Origin: Mesaphorura yosii
Taxonomy: Eukaryota; Arthropoda; Collembola; Poduromorpha; Tullbergiidae
Assembly: GCA_009869945.1 (NCBI GenBank)
Contig: WIXG01000346.1
Location: 16,901-80,900 of the forward strand
Length of the DNA stretch: 64,000 bases
Direction: 5' to 3'
Shown here: positions 1,759 through 39,008 of the stretch, piece after piece
How the letters are laid out: the number at the start of each line of letters is the position of its first letter
Numbering within the stretch: the first letter of the stretch is position 1
Position numbers and translations under genes: made by a program
The notes under the pieces: model-generated
The model's database searches: none
What the model was told of the DNA's origin: nothing
What the model saw: the letters and a program-made list of their open reading frames with translations, nothing else

Positions 1759-2922
1759 TCAGTATTCTGCCCGGTACGTGATGACGATGGACGTTATTTG
1801 CTGCCCAATAAACAGAAACAAGTTGAGGGCGGTGCGTGGATTAGCCGTGAACATGAAACTGATTCGTAATGAAATCGTCCGCAGTGCCCGCAATTCTTTC
1901 AACTCGCCGGCGCCTGTATGCTGCTGCTGGAGGCATGCGCGGTGGAGGTTGGCTCGCAGCCCCTCCGTTCGATGGTAGAGGACCGTGTTCGTCTGGAAGA
2001 GAATCAGAATGCCGAAGGAAAGACCAACCGAAAGCTGACACATGATCAGGAGTCGAGCCGGGTCCAGCTGAGAGTGGGCGAGGACGAGTGCCGACGAGCA
2101 CGCCGTGACAAAGATCGCGGCGACGAGGAGCAGGGCGGGCGTGAAGAAGTCGGAGGCCGCCTTCTGCACGATCGCGTCAAGCACGAGCATCTGCCTGTAG
2201 ACACCGATCGCCTTCTCCGCCGACGATCGCCCAGCCTCCAGTGAGTCGAGCACCAGCTGAGCCCAGTCCTGCATTACCAGCAGACAGGCGAAACACGACA
2301 TTCCCGTCAAGCACAGGCGCGTTATCGCCCGGAATGCGAGGATGGCAAAGAAAGTGCTGTACAGGACCCGACCGGGGAGGGCAAGCCCAAAGTACTGCAG
2401 GTACAGGTTCTCGATTGTGGAGGGACTCAGTTGGACCAGGAAGCAGATTGCTGGGACGGTGAAGCACATGGAGCAGAAAGAGCCGTAGACGAGAACAAGT
2501 TTGAACTCGTCCAGATGCTGCTTCTCCGATGAAATGCTGCGAAGCATTATGTTTGTCTGATGTAGTTTATTGACGAGTCGAGCGAATTCTTCGTTGTACG
2601 CGTACCCGGCGTACATTATGCCCGACCCAGCGCCGAATCCCGTGCAGATGAGAAGGATGACCATTTGCTGTACGACATCAAGGGCGTGGGCACGGATGGC
2701 TCCCTGCTGCTGCAGGAAGTGAACGTACCAGCCGATGAGGAGCACAGTGCAAAGGAGGTCGAGAGCGGACACGGCACCACAAAGGAACCGTCTCATTCGA
2801 GTCTTGATGGAGGTCAGTTTCAGCACAGGCGCTGCCGGGTCCCAGTCGAAAGGAAGGGACCTGACCCTCGTCGCGACGAACCACAGGAAATTCAGGATGC
2901 AAGAAACTTTTTCTGGTAGCAT
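1759..2922 (-). CDS. Gustatory-receptor-like seven-helix protein 2
   Basis: Single-exon gene on the minus strand. The frame is open up to 3045, but the ATG at 2922 is preferred because it aligns with the starts of the neighbouring receptors (MLPEK, then LPFDWDPAAPVLKL), giving 387 residues. The C-terminal half, with ISFMFT, RTALNLFLF and an IGQQIT-x-IVITYR ending, is very close to the receptor at 3397-4638, indicating a recent tandem duplication. Multiple hydrophobic helices fit the gustatory/odorant receptor superfamily. It converges on receptor 1, with only about 85 bp between their stop codons. Assignment to the superfamily is from helix pattern and paralogy; there is no evidence for its ligand. 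Confidence 0.74.
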   Translation of the reverse strand: MLPEKVSCILNFLWFVATRVRSLPFDWDPAAPVLKLTSIKTRMRRFLCGAVSALDLLCTVLLIGWYVHFLQQQGAIRAHALDVVQQMVILLICTGFGAGSGIMYAGYAYNEEFARLVNKLHQTNIMLRSISSEKQHLDEFKLVLVYGSFCSMCFTVPAICFLVQLSPSTIENLYLQYFGLALPGRVLYSTFFAILAFRAITRLCLTGMSCFACLLVMQDWAQLVLDSLEAGRSSAEKAIGVYRQMLVLDAIVQKAASDFFTPALLLVAAIFVTACSSALVLAHSQLDPARLLIMCQLSVGLSFGILILFQTNTVLYHRTEGLRANLHRACLQQQHTGAGELKELRALRTISLRISFMFTANPRTALNLFLFIGQQITSIVITYRAEY

Positions 2923-3396
2923 CTTGACTGCTTGACGGGTGGAGTCTTTCCAGTCGTCTGTGTGCTTCTTCACTATGAGTGTCAATGATTTCAAGATGGC
3001 TGGTTGGCAAGCGAAATGCGACATACAATAGCAATAAATAGCCAAAACAGCGTTCCAATTAGGGTTGCTGCAATAAAGCGATAGAATGTCATGTAAAATG
3101 AATAAATGGCCAAGTGTTTCTTCGTGGAATACTTCGTTATCGTTAATTATTAATCAGAGCTTGTGAAATTCGATTCGGGGCTCACAACACTCCGAGTCGG
3201 TTCTTAGATATTTAATGTAGACTGCCTTTCTTATCCGGAAGAAGGGCATTGAAGAAGCGAAAACGAAAAGTGGTGCTCACTAAATTTTTAACGCCTCGAG
3301 AGTCGTGACTTTTTACGATTTGCGTCATGGTCGTAGCCTTGCCGAAATGACGAATTGGCATGTGTCGAAGCAAAACTGTTAGCAAACACATAAAAT
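2923..3396. other. Spacer between tandem receptors 2 and 3
   Basis: Presumed promoter of receptor 2 and 3' flank of receptor 3, both on the minus strand. AT-rich, with no gene, RNA or repeat that I can support. The frame of receptor 2 stays open to 3045 but the extra 41 residues do not match its paralogues. Confidence 0.4.
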
Positions 3397-29886: not shown

Positions 29887-30115
29887 ACTGTAAACTCACC
29901 ACGTCTGGTCGATCCAGCGTTTGGCCCATTTTGGTGTTAACCTTCGGCTTTCTTTTTAAATTACGTGTCAACTATTTATATCACCTTTATTTTTATTCCA
30001 TAGTTAGCAAGTTAGCTTTTAGCATTCACTATCTAATCATGTCCCATGTGATCATGTCCTTGACACAAATTATAAAATTTTATCTTTATTTTAATGTTCT
30101 TGACTTCTCGATGTC

Positions 30116-30156: not shown

Positions 30157-32758
30157 TCAGCTTGTTGGGGTGTTTTCAGTCGCTGTCCCTTGCGGTGGCG
30201 CATCAGGCAAGTCAGGCTGAGGCTCAGTCACATTTGACAGGCATTCTTGGCCCATTTTCTCGAGGATTTCCCTCAGCGTCATAAAAGTTGGTCTGTCGGA
30301 AGGCCGAAGGCTCCAGCACCGCAGCATTTCTTCATACAACGCCTTCGGGGCAAATTCAGGCTTCGAGAGTCGGAGCCCCTCCTGCAGCTTGGCAATGAAC
30401 TCAATCGAGAACTGCGTGCCGGCCGTGTAGGGAATATCCCCGAGGCTGAATATTTCCCACAGCGTGACTCCAAACGACCAGACGTCTGATTGGGTACTGA
30501 AACTCATTTCTCGGAGCGACTCAATCGCGAGCGACCGCCACGGCAGCGGAGTCTCGTGGCTTTTGACGTAGTTTGTGTAATCGTACAGCTGCTTGGCGAG
30601 CCCAAAGTCTGTGACCTTGGCGCACGACTTATGCAGGAGGAGAATGTTGCGGGTGGCGAGGTCGCCGTGGATCACTTTCTTGGTGGCGAGGTATTCCATC
30701 GCCGAGCAGATTTGAGCACTCCACAGGTAAAGGTCGCAGGTGGCGATTGGGTCGTGGTCGTACACGTTGGCTTGGTACGTCGTGGCAGTGACTGCAACGA
30801 ACGGAGGCTCCACGCCAACGCCAGCGGCCGCTTTAGCATAGTGTCCACACCGTGCGCAGTCGGTGAAAGACTCCTTCCTCTTCCGCAAGTAATTTTCGAG
30901 GTCCCCCAGCGGGCAAAACTCAACAAACAGAAACACGACTCCTTCGCTCAGCTGTGCCGTCCGCGCCCCAATCAAATTCACGATGTGCGCGTGTTGCCCG
31001 AGGTAAATCAGGATCTTCAGCTCGCTGAGCAGTGCCTTGAGGTACAGTTTATTACAGCAGTGCGCCTGCACTGTCTTGACGGCGACGGGCGTCCCACTCG
31101 CGACTTCCACGCCCTGCAGCACGACGCCAAACTGGCCAGAGCCAAGCACTTTAAAACGGTCGATCACAATTTTGTTCTCGTCCAGCTCGAAAAGCCGATT
31201 ATATGGCTGGTAAATTATATTTTCGCGACAGACGTACAGTTCATTGACGAGTTTGTGCTGGAGTTCCGGGACTCCGTACTCAAACTCGTGGATTTCGGCG
31301 GCGGTGAGACCGGCAGTGCTTACTGTGCCGTCTTCACCGTAGTAACGATACTTGCCTCCTTTTCCTGAGGCGCTCGGCCATCGTATGCACCAGCGCCTAT
31401 AGACGTACGCGGTCCCCGTGGCGGTGAGGACTCCGACGAGGAGCGGCACGCCCACGGCGAGCGAATAGAACAAGGCCGGGTACTTTGTCTCGAAGAAATC
31501 GTTGTCGTCTTCGTCTTCTCCGCTCCCGTCATCCTTCTCGTCTTTACCCTTCCCTTTGCCCTCACCACTGCCCCTGCCCGTGTCCTTCTCGGGCCCTGGC
31601 CCTGGCCGTCCTTTATCCTTGACGGCCAGCGTGAAGACGGCTTCCGCTTCACCAGCGATATTCTCCGCGAAGCACGAGTACTCTCCCGCATATCGTCGGT
31701 CCATCTTTGGGAAGAAGAGCTTCAGGACCGACATGGGCCCAGACGGCGGTGGTGGTGGTGACTGGCCTTCGCCACGGTCGTGTTCGTGCCCAGGCTCCCG
31801 CCAGCGTCTGAAATCGCCCGGCTTGAGCCTCGTTTCCTCTGCACGCGTGAACAGCTCGGGAAACTCCGTCTTGTTGTACCGCCAGTAAAGATCTGGCGGG
31901 GGGTTGCCGATCGCCTCGCACGTCAAGTACTGATTTTCCTTCTCTGCGGTCATCATCTTCTTCCGCTTCTCCGGTGGAGTCATCATCCGTGGAGGGACCT
32001 GCCCCGGAATCACGCGGCAGTCCCGGAGGTAGCGCTTGACGTCCTTGTCCTTGCATTTGAGCCGCCAGTCAGACCACGCGTCAAACTGATTGTCGACAGT
32101 GTAAATCGTCTGCGCGCACTCGATCGATTTGCTGATGTCTTCGCCCACGAGCTCTGAAAATCGGATTTCAAAAATTAAATGCTAGCACCCATGTACCATG
32201 GCGGGCTTTATTTTAAATTACCGCTGCAATTTATCTCGCATTTGTTCTCCTTCTCGAATCCGTCATGGCACCAGTAAAGGTGGTGAATCTTTGAACGAGA
32301 AAACATAACCATAGCTTGATCGTTGGCGCGAACTTTCGAATTTTGAGGAACAAATTCCTGTCCGTACCCGAAATATTCCATAATTTGTATGGTTGGAACC
32401 TGGCGGCGAAACTTGAATGTAGGAAGAATTCAGGCCCGTGGCAGAGTCGGCGATGCAAATCCCTGGCAAGTGAGAAAAAGTTAACTGAGACTAAGATTTA
32501 CCTAAATTTTTGAGACGGTTTCGTCCAATTGCCGGCCCCAGAATATGACTTCAGTGAATTCCACTTACAATCGGGTATCAGCTTCCAGGAAATATTGTGT
32601 TTGACGTACAGCTCGACGGCGAGTTCACAGCGAGTGAAGATCCTGGAGCTGGCTGGAGCGGGGGCGCAAATGATCACGAAGACGATCACAAAGGCACTAA
32701 ACACAGCAGAGCTGATAAGAAAGACGGTGTTTTCAAATCTACGCGCCTTGACACACAT
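30157..32758 (-). CDS. Receptor tyrosine kinase with extracellular C-type lysozyme (pseudoenzyme) and Ig domains
   Basis: Four exons on the minus strand (32569-32758, 32368-32462, 32222-32288, 30157-32153), phases 1, 0, 1, total 782 residues. Residues 1-38: signal peptide. Residues 40-165: C-type lysozyme fold, starting RIFTRCEL, with all eight cysteines (about 44, 66, 102, 112, 116, 130, 151, 163) and the YGIF, YWCHDG and WSDWRLKC blocks. The catalytic Glu is Ala (about 71) and the catalytic Asp is Asn (about 90), so it should not cleave peptidoglycan. Residues 185-297: one Ig domain with cysteines at 196 and 278. Residues 300-340: Gly/Lys then acidic stalk. Residues 344-369: membrane helix. 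Residues 450-765: kinase with GSGQFG, VAVK (Lys 477), HGDLATRN (HRD Arg replaced by Gly) and DFG (Asp 633), most like the PDGFR/VEGFR class. The lysozyme end and the kinase share one exon. Confidence 0.9.
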
Positions 32759-33438: not shown

Positions 33439-34773
33439 TCACTCCAGGTCGTGATAGGCGATGATGGCCGACGCCACGTTGCTCAGCATGAAGGCGAGGA
33501 TCGTCAGCGGAGTGACGCGCTTCACGATGAAGAAAGAGCCGCATCGCGCATAGATTGGACGCAGCGCCCGAAGTTGGCGCTGTCGATGTCCGTAACTGCG
33601 GCTCGCAGGCGAGAGCCCCCGCAGCAGCGTGTCAAGGACATCGCTTGTATTCGCCGTGATGCCCTGCGTGAGTCTGAACCCAAATAGGAGGCCGAGGACC
33701 GTGGAGCCCAGGACGAGGAGTAGCGGACCCTTCAGCGTGAGGGGCATGGCGTGGTGGAAGACAATCGCTGACGAAGCGCTGAAGACGACGATGAACGCCG
33801 ACATACACGCGAGCAGAGGCATTAGTTCCGAAATGGACTCGCGATACACTGCAAAGTAGACGCAGAGGGCCTGGTAGTCGCTGATCGTACGACGCGGCCG
33901 CTGGCGCTCGCGCTTGGCGCTGACCAGTCCATGCAGAATATCCGTCCAGCTGCGCAGGACGAGCGTGGACCCGAGCATCAGAAACATGGCACAGATGATG
34001 CGAAGTGCGTTGAAGAAGGTCGTGGTCGCAGTTGCAGTCGAGTATGCAAGCCGCCAGAGGAGCTGGCAGGATCCGGAGCATAGATCATACATGAAAGGAG
34101 AATTTGGGGCGGCCAGCACGACGAAAGAGGCCAGAGGCACGAGAAGAATGATCCCAAGTAGGGATTTGCAGAGGAGTTCGAAGAACTCCTCGCCATTGGT
34201 CGGAATCCTTGGGCGGAAGAAGTCTGGGAAGCAATTGCAAGGGATGAATCCATGAATACAGAGAAAAGGCAAGGATTGCTCAGATTTCTTACCAATTACG
34301 TCTCGGATTGGAATTCCGGACAGCCTTTCAGGGAATGGCTGCGGAAGTGGCCGACCAGAGCGCTCCAGCAAATGGGTGTTGACCTGCCCCAATTTATTGA
34401 CCAAATCCACGATCTGGTCCTGGTACGAGAACGTTGAGGTACGGATTCCAAAGCCACACAGCGCCACACCGTACGCAATCGCTTGGATGAGGACTACCTC
34501 GGCGGGTTTGGGGATGAAGAAGAAGTGGGCCACGACGATCGAGACCAGGACGAATGTCCCGACGTCAGTCGCTTTGCAGAAGGCTGCGAATGCAGAGATA
34601 ATGAGCGGACGCAGACGGTACGCGTCCTGACTCGGGCCAGTTTCAAGCCGAGTTGACCGAGGCAAAAGTTTAACCACCGCAGCACGCGCATCGTAGACGA
34701 ATGGAACTGACTGCAGGATGGTGGCAAAGGTGAAGAGAATGTCGAAGGCTCGAAGTGTGTCAGGGGTCAACAT
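33439..34773 (-). CDS. Gustatory-receptor-like seven-helix protein 5
   Basis: Two exons, 34293-34773 and 33439-34223, around a 69-bp intron (G|gtaaga ... ttcccag|AC). The intron has no stop and is a multiple of three, so the frame reads through it, but the splice signals and its Cys/Phe/Ser-rich translation argue for removal. The result is 421 residues. The ATG at 34773 (MLTPDTLRAF) is chosen because it aligns with the other receptors; it is followed by the same SVPFVYDARAAVVKLLP box. Helix pattern and C-terminus (FMLSNVASAIIAYHDLE) place it in the same gustatory-like family as the 0.4-6.8 kb cluster, though isolated from it by 26 kb. Ligand unknown. Confidence 0.7.
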   Translation of the reverse strand: MLTPDTLRAFDILFTFATILQSVPFVYDARAAVVKLLPRSTRLETGPSQDAYRLRPLIISAFAAFCKATDVGTFVLVSIVVAHFFFIPKPAEVVLIQAIAYGVALCGFGIRTSTFSYQDQIVDLVNKLGQVNTHLLERSGRPLPQPFPERLSGIPIRDVIGKKSEQSLPFLCIHGFIPCNCFPDFFRPRIPTNGEEFFELLCKSLLGIILLVPLASFVVLAAPNSPFMYDLCSGSCQLLWRLAYSTATATTTFFNALRIICAMFLMLGSTLVLRSWTDILHGLVSAKRERQRPRRTISDYQALCVYFAVYRESISELMPLLACMSAFIVVFSASSAIVFHHAMPLTLKGPLLLVLGSTVLGLLFGFRLTQGITANTSDVLDTLLRGLSPASRSYGHRQRQLRALRPIYARCGSFFIVKRVTPLTILAFMLSNVASAIIAYHDLE

Positions 34774-35640
34774 GACTCGACTCGCAGCTTGCCAGCTTGC
34801 GTAAGAAAACTGGAGGAATTTCACGGAGCTACTAGTGCGACGTATTTCTCTATTTCTCAGGCGTGTCTTGCCATGTTCGTGCCAATTTGCGAATTGCTTG
34901 TTCCTGTCCAGAATTTTGAAGCGATTGAAGCCTGAATAATTTAATTGCTAGAGTTGTTGGCATGCATCTCGCTATACGAAGAATGCGTCATTAAAATGAA
35001 TAAGATTGCTTAAGTGCCTTACACGACACCCGAGTTGTCTCATGGGGCCATGACTTGACTCGGCTGACTCCAACTAATTAAGCTCAAAATATCAGCGAAG
35101 GCCGAAATAATCCGTAATTACATTCAAAATTGAGGAATTTACAATATGCCGAGTGAAGTGACGTGCAATGCGATTTTGCGTGTGAAGCGAACACTTCTTC
35201 GAGTTTCTGGAATTTTATCTTGCCTTTAATCTTCGATCAATTCAATCGATCTCCTCTTTGAAAATTGATCAGAATCGCTTGGGGTTGAATTTGTTCGATT
35301 CACAGATTCCAGGTGACCTGCTTACATTTCCAAGAAAATAGATCTGCGACGCGTGACGGGTGATCAAAGACGCAAATCAGCGTCAAAATCACTGAAAAAA
35401 TGTTTGAAAATTTATTATCCAGCCCTTATTGAAAATAACAACAATTAATAATTAAGACGTGATTAGTAATTACAGTTGTTTGGTTGCAATAAAATTGAGC
35501 TTTATTCCACCTCACATTTGAATAGCACTTTATCACAGTCAATTGACTCATCATACTAATTGTTAATTTTGATAAGGACAAGATGAGGTAGCTTAGTAAA
35601 TACATCTTGTTCCAGAAGTTGCCATACTTACACATTATAA
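34774..35640. other. AT-rich spacer upstream of receptor 5
   Basis: Promoter side of receptor 5 followed by AT-rich DNA that may include the undefined left part of the transposase remnant at 35641. I find no terminal inverted repeats or intact gene. Confidence 0.35.
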
Positions 35641-36067: not shown

Positions 36068-36073
36068 TTTATT
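36068..36073 (-). terminator. Poly(A) signal AATAAA overlapping the ionotropic receptor stop codon
   Basis: On the minus strand the receptor ends GAATAAATA, so the TAA stop lies inside an AATAAA hexamer. If used, the 3' UTR would lie within the adjoining transposase fragment. Confidence 0.4.
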
Positions 36074-38414
36074 CGAGAGAAAGTCGCACGGGATGAGATG
36101 AAGATGCGAAGGTCTTTGTTCTTGACTTCCGGCTTCTCGCGTTCGACACCAAGGAGTTGACCACTTCTATGGGCGGCCACTTTCTCGCTCGGCTAAACCA
36201 CCTTCGGCACTTGTCCACATTCGCGTACAGCAACGACTTGGCGGCACACAACAGCGCCCGAAGCCTTTCTCGGTTTCCAAGGAGGAGGAGGATTTCTATC
36301 AGGAGCGCCAAGCCGCACAAAGACACAAAGGCGCTATACACGATAATCGGAATGCGAATGACCTCCATTCCCATTCGCTTCGGGGGATCAGGAGGCGGTG
36401 AGAGCCCGAACAAGGTTGCAGCCAGGGGACGAGGCTTACGGGACCCGGTCACCCTTCGAATTGTCACCTGCCTTTCAAAGGCGACCTCCGTGAAAATAGT
36501 ATTCACCTGTTGCCAAACGCCATGCAGTCCGGACGCGGTCATGGCGCTGACGGCCCTCGCCATTCGCCTGTGGATCCAGTTGACTGACACCGCCTCGATG
36601 CCAATATCCACGAAGGGATTTGCTGCGCCATCGAACACGATTTTCTTTCGATCCCGGAGCGTTGTGCGAATCAGAGCTGCCGTCGAGGATGCGCTTGTAC
36701 CCTCGAGTATCGCAAAGTTCAGCGGCACCTTAATCTGCCCCCTGTTGGTGCTGTTGATGGGGTGTCCCTGGACAACTCCTCGCAAGAAGGGCGTATAGTA
36801 GCGACTGAGAGTGCTACCGTCACCTTCATTCTGAAAGTAGACGACGGAGCTCAGGAGTGTGGTACAAGTGTGGCATGCAGGAAGCTGGGGCAAGTACTCC
36901 AGGGCGGGGGTGAGTAAAGTTTGGTTCCTCGAGTTCACCATGACGAATGACATGGAGTATATTGGCAGCTGACTCTCCACCAGAGCCTGGAGTGTGTTGG
37001 GGACTGGTGGGACCACCCGCCTGGCCATGAGTGCTGTCACAAGCCCCGAGTACCCGTTCGAGATGACCACCGTCGCGAGGAGCCACAGAGTGAACACGAG
37101 GACGAACGCAGGCTTGACCAGTCGACCGCGGAATCCCTGGCCGAGAAGCGTGCCGAAAAGTGTTATGGCACAGGAAAGCATTTCGTCCGGGCCCGGGCGC
37201 AGTCCTCGCTGCAGGATCTTGTAGGAGGCCAAAACAGCGAGAAGAGAGGCCCACGTGAGGATCCAGGTGGGGAGGTCCATGGTTGTGAGGAGCGCGTTCA
37301 TGTTCGTGATCGCAATGTACTCGTTGTCCAGAACGATGAGGAACCGGAAGGGTGTGGTGGCCAGCCTCAGCACGTTGTACCCGCGTAACCCAAAATTATT
37401 CACACTATTGTCAAACATTGTGTACTGCGAGAAACCACCCACATTTGTGCTCCGCTGTCCGGCGTCAAGTCTTGGCCCGAATGTGACATTAAACTCACGC
37501 GCGAGTTGGAGCTGCAGGCACTCGTTCGCTGTCAAGAATGACAATTGCCTCACACGCACGTGAATCAAGTGGGTCCCACACAGTCGTCTGAACAGGCGTC
37601 GATGTGTCTCGAGTCGCTCAAAGATGTCGACATCGATGTACATGAAGGAGCCGCCGGCCCCCGCCGCCCTCTCGCCCACCAAGTTCAAAGTCCAGCTCCC
37701 ATTCCATTCCTCGGATTGAAGGCGCTTGATTGAGGCCTGTGGTCCTGGTCGGCTGGGTTCGCACACCAAATTCACAACACTCCCATTCTCCGCCACCTCC
37801 AAGGTGACTCCGTAGTAGCCTCGTACCCAGATCGAATGTGAGAGCGCCTTGAGTCGGTCGTCCAGCTCCAGTTCGTGTCCACGGAGCCGTGGCACCACTA
37901 TCGTAAAGTCAATAGTACCCTCGTTCTCGAGACTGTTGAGCATGAGTCGGTGAAAGGGGGCCCCAGGGAAGCCCAGATCGTAATTGCGTGGGCGGAGAGG
38001 TTTGGGGACCCACAGAGTCAGGACTCTGCAGCGGGCGTGCTTCAGGTGGTCACCCAATGGGAGGCGGGCTCCTTGCAGGCGGATGACTTGGAGCAGTCTC
38101 CGCACAGTCTCGTCGGCCGAGAATGGGAGCGTTGTAGGAATTCTCAGCTCGTTCAACAGCATCGCGTACTCCTGCAGGTCCTGACTTCGGAGCACCACAT
38201 TGTCATTGTCTATGACTCCGTCCAGTGCCACAACACAGTCACGGAGGGTGTGGCTGAAGAGGCGAACAAGGTTGGCTGGAAGTACAAAAGTCGTAGTAGG
38301 CTCGATCACGTCAGCGTAAACGTCGTCACAAGAAATTATGAAGACTTGCAATTGCAAAATATAAATCAAAGTCTGGAGGAGACTGAGGTTGCTTGAGGGA
38401 TTAACCCCCAACAT
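36069..38414 (-). CDS. Divergent ionotropic receptor (IR)
   Basis: A single-exon frame; from the ATG at 38414 it gives 781 residues with a clear signal sequence (LLQTLIYILQLQVFIISC). The frame stays open upstream, with another ATG at 38609. A long extracellular N-terminal half, then the ligand-binding S1 region, first pore helix TWILTWASLLAVLASYKIL, a pore-loop with LFGTLLGQGF, second helix VLVFTLWLLATVVISNGYSG leading into GLVTALM, and a last helix near the C-terminus (IPIIVYSAFVSLCGLALLIE) follow the ionotropic glutamate receptor topology. The SYTANL-type gating motif is degenerate (SNGYSGLVTAL), and glutamate-binding residues are not obvious, as expected for divergent IRs. These form chemosensory cation channels, usually with IR25a or IR76b. 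Ligand unknown. Confidence 0.8.
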   Translation of the reverse strand: MLGVNPSSNLSLLQTLIYILQLQVFIISCDDVYADVIEPTTTFVLPANLVRLFSHTLRDCVVALDGVIDNDNVVLRSQDLQEYAMLLNELRIPTTLPFSADETVRRLLQVIRLQGARLPLGDHLKHARCRVLTLWVPKPLRPRNYDLGFPGAPFHRLMLNSLENEGTIDFTIVVPRLRGHELELDDRLKALSHSIWVRGYYGVTLEVAENGSVVNLVCEPSRPGPQASIKRLQSEEWNGSWTLNLVGERAAGAGGSFMYIDVDIFERLETHRRLFRRLCGTHLIHVRVRQLSFLTANECLQLQLAREFNVTFGPRLDAGQRSTNVGGFSQYTMFDNSVNNFGLRGYNVLRLATTPFRFLIVLDNEYIAITNMNALLTTMDLPTWILTWASLLAVLASYKILQRGLRPGPDEMLSCAITLFGTLLGQGFRGRLVKPAFVLVFTLWLLATVVISNGYSGLVTALMARRVVPPVPNTLQALVESQLPIYSMSFVMVNSRNQTLLTPALEYLPQLPACHTCTTLLSSVVYFQNEGDGSTLSRYYTPFLRGVVQGHPINSTNRGQIKVPLNFAILEGTSASSTAALIRTTLRDRKKIVFDGAANPFVDIGIEAVSVNWIHRRMARAVSAMTASGLHGVWQQVNTIFTEVAFERQVTIRRVTGSRKPRPLAATLFGLSPPPDPPKRMGMEVIRIPIIVYSAFVSLCGLALLIEILLLLGNRERLRALLCAAKSLLYANVDKCRRWFSRARKWPPIEVVNSLVSNARSRKSRTKTFASSSHPVRLSLE

Positions 38415-39008
38415 TTTGGGAGGAAATCTGGCGTGAACTGGTGGTTTGTAAATAATTGAAACTCGGGGCAATAATCCAACCTCAAGATCTTTACACGTAC
38501 TGCGTGGAGAAAGGGAAAAGTTGGCAAATGGCGTGTGAGTTCCAAGGCTGTCGTTGGAAAATAACAAAATCCTGCTCCCTCGAGGGGTTCTATAGCTGGA
38601 CACAATCATGTTGACCTTGAACAAGGCTCCCAGTGGAGTCGGACAATGTGACCGTGTGAGTTTCGCTACTCTGCTCGCGAAGTTGACATGCAATCACACT
38701 CTCCTTCCTCATCGATCCTGCTGCAACTCTCTATCCGCGACTCCAGCAATTTGCACATTTTCGCAACTCATTTTAAAACGTGTGTAATTTTGCAATTTTA
38801 TTCAGTCGCAGTGTTGGGCTCGTGACTCGTGAAGGAGCTCAAGAGCAAGAGCTTTACTTACGTGGATTGAAACTGTGAAATTGGGATTACAGAAGTCGAC
38901 TACACGCTCTGCATTCTGCATCTGGGATCATTTTAATGAAAGTACACAAAGTTTGTGCTATTTTGACTCTTGCAAATAACGTGTGACGATGACGATATAT
39001 GATCCAAC
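38415..39008. other. Upstream region of the ionotropic receptor
   Basis: The first 280 bp are open in the receptor frame but precede the preferred start. The remainder is AT-rich without a supported gene. Confidence 0.35.

Follow-up and report, generated by a model that had tools for sequence, protein, structure and literature searches.

Receptor tyrosine kinases (RTKs) of the VEGFR, PDGFR, KIT and CSF1R type are the closest known counterparts of the kinase encoded by the gene reported here, which lies in a 64,000-nucleotide stretch of the springtail Mesaphorura yosii (contig WIXG01000346.1 of assembly GCA_009869945.1; the whole stretch is called the window). In a pairwise phmmer comparison, the nearest solved kinases were VEGFR1/2, PDGFRA, KIT and CSF1R among the best 60 of 2389 PDB matches, the top match being an EGFR construct with two kinase copies, the scores of which are summed. 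The window gene resembles these RTKs in its insert-split kinase, its single transmembrane (TM) helix and its one immunoglobulin (Ig) domain, which has a similar counterpart in an Ig-RTK of this genome, but it differs from them in bearing an N-terminal lysozyme domain and HGD where HRD is expected; moreover, VEGFR/PDGFR-type RTKs carry an Ig array, whereas one Ig or none was found in the lysozyme receptors. With the C-type lysozymes (GH22) the gene shares a whole-domain match, eight cysteines, Trp28, Trp108 and the intron positions of stand-alone genes, whereas Glu35 and Asp52 are lost and the domain is joined to a kinase receptor. Plant LysM receptor-like kinases, in which an extracellular cell-wall recognition head is coupled to a kinase, are similar in outline, but their ectodomain is unrelated and their kinase is of another type, and the window receptor is not a member of that family. 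A lysozyme fold that has no catalytic pair and works by binding is known from SLLP1/SPACA3 and other LYZL proteins, and the window lysozyme shares this loss: according to PMC5104373, buffalo SLLP1, a sperm protein thought to be inactive, carries Glu35Ala/Asp52Asn, and SLLP1 binds the oocyte receptor SAS1B. These proteins are vertebrate and, in the passages of PMC5104373 consulted, appear without a kinase fusion.

Shuffling of ectodomains onto conserved RTK kinases has been described across holozoans (PMC8662651). The words 'lysozyme' and 'kelch' have 0 occurrences each in the main text of PMC8662651, as do 'kinase' and 'lysozyme' in that of the Folsomia candida genome paper (PMC5490193). A passage of PMC10051947 indicates that lysozymes were not covered in its survey of antimicrobial genes from springtails, and a springtail STK40 sequence is named in PMC7586955. 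The first-pass annotation of the window, made from its letters, had known of no described receptor kinase with a lysozyme ectodomain, and no lysozyme-kinase receptor was present among the literature matches listed, which come from the open-access literature (most subscription papers lie outside it), and among those matches we found no report of such a head for any RTK. The genome presents an antibacterial enzyme fold, here dead, as the head of RTKs at six loci, together with related kinases that bear other heads.

The window gene consists of four minus-strand exons encoding 782 amino acids and a stop. All three introns are GT-AG and the phases close, as reproduced by splicing. Its features are as follows.

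32569..32758, minus strand: exon 1, signal segment and N-terminal part of the lysozyme; GT donor; ends in the Trp28 codon, phase 1
32645..32758, minus strand: probable signal peptide region, aa 1-38 (hydrophobic aa 12-30); hydropathy peak 2.91
32368..32462, minus strand: exon 2, lysozyme active-site region, by translation and hen lysozyme alignment
32440-32442, minus strand: Glu35 position in exon 2, Ala
32383-32385, minus strand: Asp52 position in exon 2, Asn
32222..32288, minus strand: exon 3, middle part of the lysozyme (WCHDG...CEINC), by translation
30157..32153, minus strand: exon 4, C-terminal part of the lysozyme, Ig, TM, juxtamembrane region, tyrosine kinase and stop in a single 674-aa open frame
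32017..32641, minus strand: C-type lysozyme-like domain, aa 40-163, broken by three introns; PF00062, E 8.5e-21
31660..31995, minus strand: immunoglobulin domain, aa 171-282; Ig_3 PF13927, 2.2e-7
31420..31476, minus strand: transmembrane helix, aa 344-362; hydropathy peak 2.04
30265..31152, minus strand: insert-split tyrosine kinase domain, aa 452-747, with VAVK, HGDLATRN and DFG; PK_Tyr_Ser-Thr PF07714, 4e-70
30085..30090, minus strand: AATAAA, possible polyadenylation signal judged by its letters, 66 bases past the stop

Pfam and hydropathy analyses of the spliced protein agreed with the first-pass annotation, which had read one gene for a signal segment, C-type lysozyme, Ig, TM helix and kinase and had proposed profile checks of residues 40-165 and 450-765, the ranges within which the lysozyme and kinase matches fell. 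PF00062 was matched over profile positions 2-123 of 123, and a phmmer search of PDB sequences with the 126-aa window lysozyme matched lysozymes (2e-22) from aa 3 to aa 126 of the query. The leader and the TM helix were called from hydropathy alone (19-residue span, mean >= 1.6), which gave two peaks, at aa 12-30 and 344-362, consistent with an N-terminal signal-like segment and one TM. When compared once with the Ig-RTK at C328:6284-7129, the Ig resembled one of its Ig domains (E 3e-7). Catalytic Lys and Asp and the DFG motif are present, and with an N-terminal signal, TM and extracellular domain by hydropathy the protein falls among the RTKs; its head belongs to the PF00062 fold family by profile and by 8/8 cysteines and lacks the catalytic pair of GH22. 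It had also been argued that exon 4 alone establishes the fusion. This stood for the Ig (1.7e-7) and the kinase (2.9e-70), both significant in the 674-aa frame by itself, but not for the lysozyme piece, which scored 3.1e-4 (21.4 bits), under the Pfam cut-off of 27; the window exons were not matched in the exon-wise PF00062 search of the genome. With a custom profile that included the window sequence itself, and whose C535 row has Trp in place of Phe at position 28, the piece reached 2.6e-17. Since the lysozyme piece lies below the Pfam cut-off, the argument from exon 4 alone is weak, and the fusion is proved instead by the spliced protein and its paralogues.

The assembly holding the window comprises 93 Mb in 1127 contigs, C346 being the window contig. 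Searching it with PF00062 gave 10 matches, and with the window lysozyme as query 17 matches at E up to 1; merged by place and without C604 (E 0.35), these made 11 lysozyme loci, which were compared with 110 of the 137 kinase places (E <= 1e-10), the remaining 27 being mostly additional pieces from contigs already included. Six of the 11 have a same-strand kinase 0-2.5 kb downstream, namely C346 (window), C535, C328, C297, C313 and C1:657953-659628 (hereafter C1), and the controls (opposite strand; kinase upstream) gave 0 and 0. At C1114, C167, C118, C1:552k and C549, no same-strand kinase was found 0-2.5 kb downstream among the 110 of 137 places.

C328 (441 aa) and C297 (449 aa) each hold a leader, a complete lysozyme (5e-23 and 1e-22, respectively), Ig, TM and kinase start in a single unbroken frame. 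Both read through all three window splice positions and align without gaps, which confirms the three joins of the window independently and, together with the reproduced model, bears out the earlier statement that the three upstream exons complete the lysozyme with closing phases. At C535, lysozyme (1.1e-12), TM and kinase share one 500-aa frame; a counterpart of exon 1 with an identical boundary is present, and introns 1 and 2 match those of the window in position and phase. One 390-aa frame of C313 carries the C-terminal part of the lysozyme, a TM (hydropathy 3.09) and the kinase; by itself this frame gave no Pfam lysozyme match, and the joined lysozyme scored 3.6e-22. At C1, lysozyme exons, a TM segment and kinase pieces lie in order in differing frames, so that the fusion is read from exon order; the joined partial lysozyme domain scored 9.9e-18, and Pfam matched nothing in the 71-aa lysozyme exon on its own. 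An N-terminal hydropathy peak above threshold was not found in C535 and C297. One Ig each is present in the window, C328 and C297, and Pfam gave no Ig match in the frames of C535 and C313. The kinase motifs VA[VF]K, HGDLA[AT]RN and DFG occur at 6/6 receptor loci. The fused architecture is shown, at the level of sequence, for the window, C535, C328, C297 and C313, with the same order at C1, and the reading of the window gene as an RTK with a C-type lysozyme ectodomain is strengthened by these five further loci of the same genome. A lysozyme and a partial Ig, followed by stops, were also observed at C549:16708-17421; the 1.27 kb that follow revealed no kinase, and C549 looks like a decayed or truncated relative.

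The introns at Trp28 (phase 1) and 81/82 (phase 1) announced in the first-pass annotation were seen in the window gene, at positions that we take to correspond to those of the chicken lysozyme gene (Trp28 and residue 82). The codon-28 intron (phase 1) is present in the window, C535, C313, C1, C1114, C167 and C1:552k, the 57/58 intron (phase 0) in the window, C535, C1 and C167, and the 81/82 intron (phase 1) in the window, C313, C1, C1:552k and C167. These positions are common to stand-alone lysozyme genes of the genome, indicating that the receptor lysozymes derive from ordinary lysozyme genes, as had been proposed for the window. Comparison of C346 with C535 revealed 83/124 identical amino acids in the lysozyme and 200/314 in the kinase. 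Third codon positions differ at 75/124 and 182/314, respectively, and in the lysozyme the first and second positions differ at 30 and 26 of 124. The many third-position changes relative to amino-acid identity suggest that both lysozyme and kinase are under selection against amino-acid change; no dS value is given, synonymous sites being saturated. In the C328-C297 pair, the lysozyme (67/132 amino acids identical) changed more than the kinase start (69/85).

Alignment with hen lysozyme revealed that the Glu35/Asp52 pair is missing in 6/6 receptor lysozymes and present in 3/3 intact stand-alone ones (C1114, C1:552k and C167), C118 being outside this comparison with one exon seen. At position 35 there is Ala in C346, C535 and C313, Ser in C328, Leu in C297 and Gly in C1; at position 52, Asn in C346 and C535, Ser in C328 and C297, Glu in C313 and Leu in C1. 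C549, for which no kinase was found, has His and Ser at the two positions, so loss of both catalytic residues is not limited to kinase-bearing loci. The exact probability of 6/6 lost versus 0/3, calculated by hand, is 1/84 (1/30 with C549 counted as stand-alone), a figure that describes the pattern and does not test it because the copies are related. The cysteines are kept, 8/8 in five receptor lysozymes including the window and 7/7 of those visible in C1, as are Trp108 (6/6) and Trp63 (5/6), and position 62 is aromatic (Trp, Tyr or Phe) in 5/6. The sugar site is mostly lost, with Asp101 in 0/6, Asn59 in 2/6 and Ala107 in 4/6. An active lysozyme was rejected on the residues at positions 35 and 52, and the loss of the pair, which the first-pass annotation had not noted, suggests that the head should bind rather than cut.

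Taken together, the window gene very probably encodes a single-pass, ligand-sensing RTK of the split-kinase VEGFR/PDGFR/KIT type with a catalytically dead C-type lysozyme as its head. Judging from introns and domain order, the leader and exons of a lysozyme gene would have been placed before an Ig-TM-kinase gene, and loss of Glu35 and Asp52 would have made a ligand-binding module of the enzyme fold. We infer that the receptor is displayed on the cell surface, where its lysozyme head would bind glycan fragments or a protein, and that such binding would dimerise it, start trans-phosphorylation and lead to signalling. HGD in place of HRD, an arginine-to-glycine change at 6/6 loci, implies that control of the activation loop may differ from that of standard RTKs.

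Could the gene model have wrongly joined a lysozyme gene to a neighbouring Ig-RTK gene? The window lysozyme is indeed complete only after three splices, and its exon 4 piece lies below the Pfam cut-off. However, the ectodomains of C328 and C297 are splice-free, C535 has a significant lysozyme part and its kinase in one frame, and the order is identical at six loci and reversed at none; the adjacent-gene artefact is contradicted by the uninterrupted paralogues C328 and C297, was rejected on that account, and retains a negligible likelihood. It is very improbable that glycans are still cleaved by the receptor lysozymes through some other mechanism, which would make the protein a kinase-tethered enzyme: the Glu that C313 has at position 52 and the mostly kept groove tryptophans would fit, but the assortment of residues at positions 35 and 52 speaks against it.

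A binding head is favoured by the missing catalytic pair, and the sensing role that the first-pass annotation suggested for it is plausible. One candidate ligand is a protein: the head may bind a secreted factor of the animal itself or a partner protein when cells or gametes recognise each other, on the model of the SLLP1-SAS1B pair; this is quite possible, if somewhat short of an even prospect. The drift of the sugar-site residues favours it, as do the Kelch propellers on sister kinases, the Kelch propeller being a fold often used in protein binding, and the Glu35Ala/Asp52Asn pair of the window is that of buffalo SLLP1. A tentative alternative, somewhat less well placed, is a glycan pattern-recognition module that binds peptidoglycan or chitin fragments uncut and alerts the cell to the presence of microbes or food fungi. 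Retention of Trp108, Trp63 and an aromatic position 62 fits such a module, and according to PMC5104373, mouse SLLP1 retains a lysozyme-like groove and buffalo LYZL models bound (NAG)3. The same paper, however, gives no significant binding of chitin or arrayed glycans by mouse and human SLLP1, and little variation of Trp63 and Trp108 in LYZL proteins too, and in the receptor lysozymes Asp101, Asn59 and Ala107 are absent or incompletely kept. In view of this drift we lean slightly towards a protein ligand over a glycan. If the heads sense self proteins, they would be a clear case of a pseudoenzyme turned receptor; if they detect microbes, recognition by a repertoire of kinases, much as in plants, would have evolved in an animal; under either reading, a single purified domain would be enough to test for the ligand.

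Trees of kinases and lysozymes bear on how the receptors arose. The kinase tree contained 30 kinases, that is, 28/30 loci (the fragments L031 and L035 left out) plus C313 and C1 (182 aa only), and placed the lysozyme kinases in three places: C313 with C1, C297 with C328, and C346 and C535 among the Kelch kinases. The group holding C346, C535 and the Kelch kinases was supported at 93/89, and within it C346 and C535 were not sisters, at low support. A single clade of all six lysozyme kinases was rejected (AU p 0.0005, the long branches of C313 and C1 included), as was one kinase clade of C346, C535, C328 and C297 (AU p 0.0016, without C313 and C1); neither a C346+C535 kinase clade (p 0.28) nor a clade of the five Kelch kinases (p 0.09) was rejected. 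In the lysozyme tree, in which the C167 row carries a surplus Gly at the 81/82 join, a branch (77/83) set all receptor lysozymes and C549 on one side, C346 and C535 grouped together (96/95), and these two grouped with C328 and C297 at 79/78 (92/94 in the first lysozyme tree). Simple duplication of one fused gene was considered as the origin of all six; the kinase tree rejects the one clade that it calls for, whereas the lysozyme tree does not. The disagreement between the trees indicates that heads were swapped or replaced, and heads and kinases seem to have had different histories, in which an old lysozyme head may have been replaced in some lines or heads may have moved between kinases.

Many tyrosine kinase matches (137 places at E <= 1e-10) were observed in the genome. 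In the kinases read, HGD, HAD or HSD replaces HRD, variants that recall the non-RD kinases of plant immunity. Among the kinases closest to that of the window, Kelch matches are in frame with four, C578 (L039), C654 (L042), C732 (L043) and C539 (L044), and lie upstream of the kinase at C1099 (L041); these five Kelch-headed kinases are 56-65% identical to the window kinase. Kelch matches were located upstream of 8 kinases (81 of 115 Kelch places compared; controls 1 and 1) and subtilase matches upstream of 5 (39 of 72 subtilase places compared; controls 0 and 0). The fifth subtilase pair is C793, and the other four, scored at motif positions that we take to mark the catalytic triad, are listed below.

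C789:16752-18893 (L056): subtilase-like head and kinase, both in one 858-aa frame; without His and Ser
C981:8102-10318 (L047): subtilase-like head and kinase in separate frames; without His
C646b:16412-18741 (L057), plus strand: subtilase-like head and kinase in separate frames; without Ser
C646a:14808-12444 (L057), minus strand: subtilase-like head and kinase in separate frames; without Asp and His

The triad is incomplete in 4/4 of these heads, and the joins at C981 and C646 were rated by position because subtilase and kinase occupy separate frames. On the predicted domains, the VEGFR/PDGFR-like kinases belong to a large expansion whose related members carry Kelch, Ig or subtilase-like domains, that is, a case of ectodomain swapping. 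A broader and rather unlikely reading would see in this genome an animal equivalent of the receptor kinases of plants, with one kinase lineage expanded and repeatedly re-headed and the dead enzymes possibly serving as decoys. The new heads would then include Kelch propellers and two kinds of dead enzyme, lysozymes that have lost Glu35/Asp52 and subtilases with an incomplete triad. As decoys, the dead enzymes may bind whatever pathogens or food microbes direct at the functional ones, be it substrates or secreted inhibitors, and a decoy head may pass the alarm to its kinase.

Several minor observations were made alongside. A 929-aa frame at C727:5478-8264 (L049 979-3765) combines a cysteine-rich extracellular part, EGF-like by eye, with a tyrosine kinase, and its Pfam matches are to kinase families only. 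Within the window, the minus-strand frames 33442-34947 and 36072-38693 appear by eye to be gustatory- and ionotropic-receptor-like, and neither had a Pfam match at 0.001; positions 1762-3153 gave a weak 7tm_7 match (0.00099), below the cut-off. Elsewhere in the genome, three NRPS condensation matches were observed in the 3156-aa open frame C420:24688-32376, which is perhaps of the kind that springtails have in their beta-lactam pathway, or else a contaminant.
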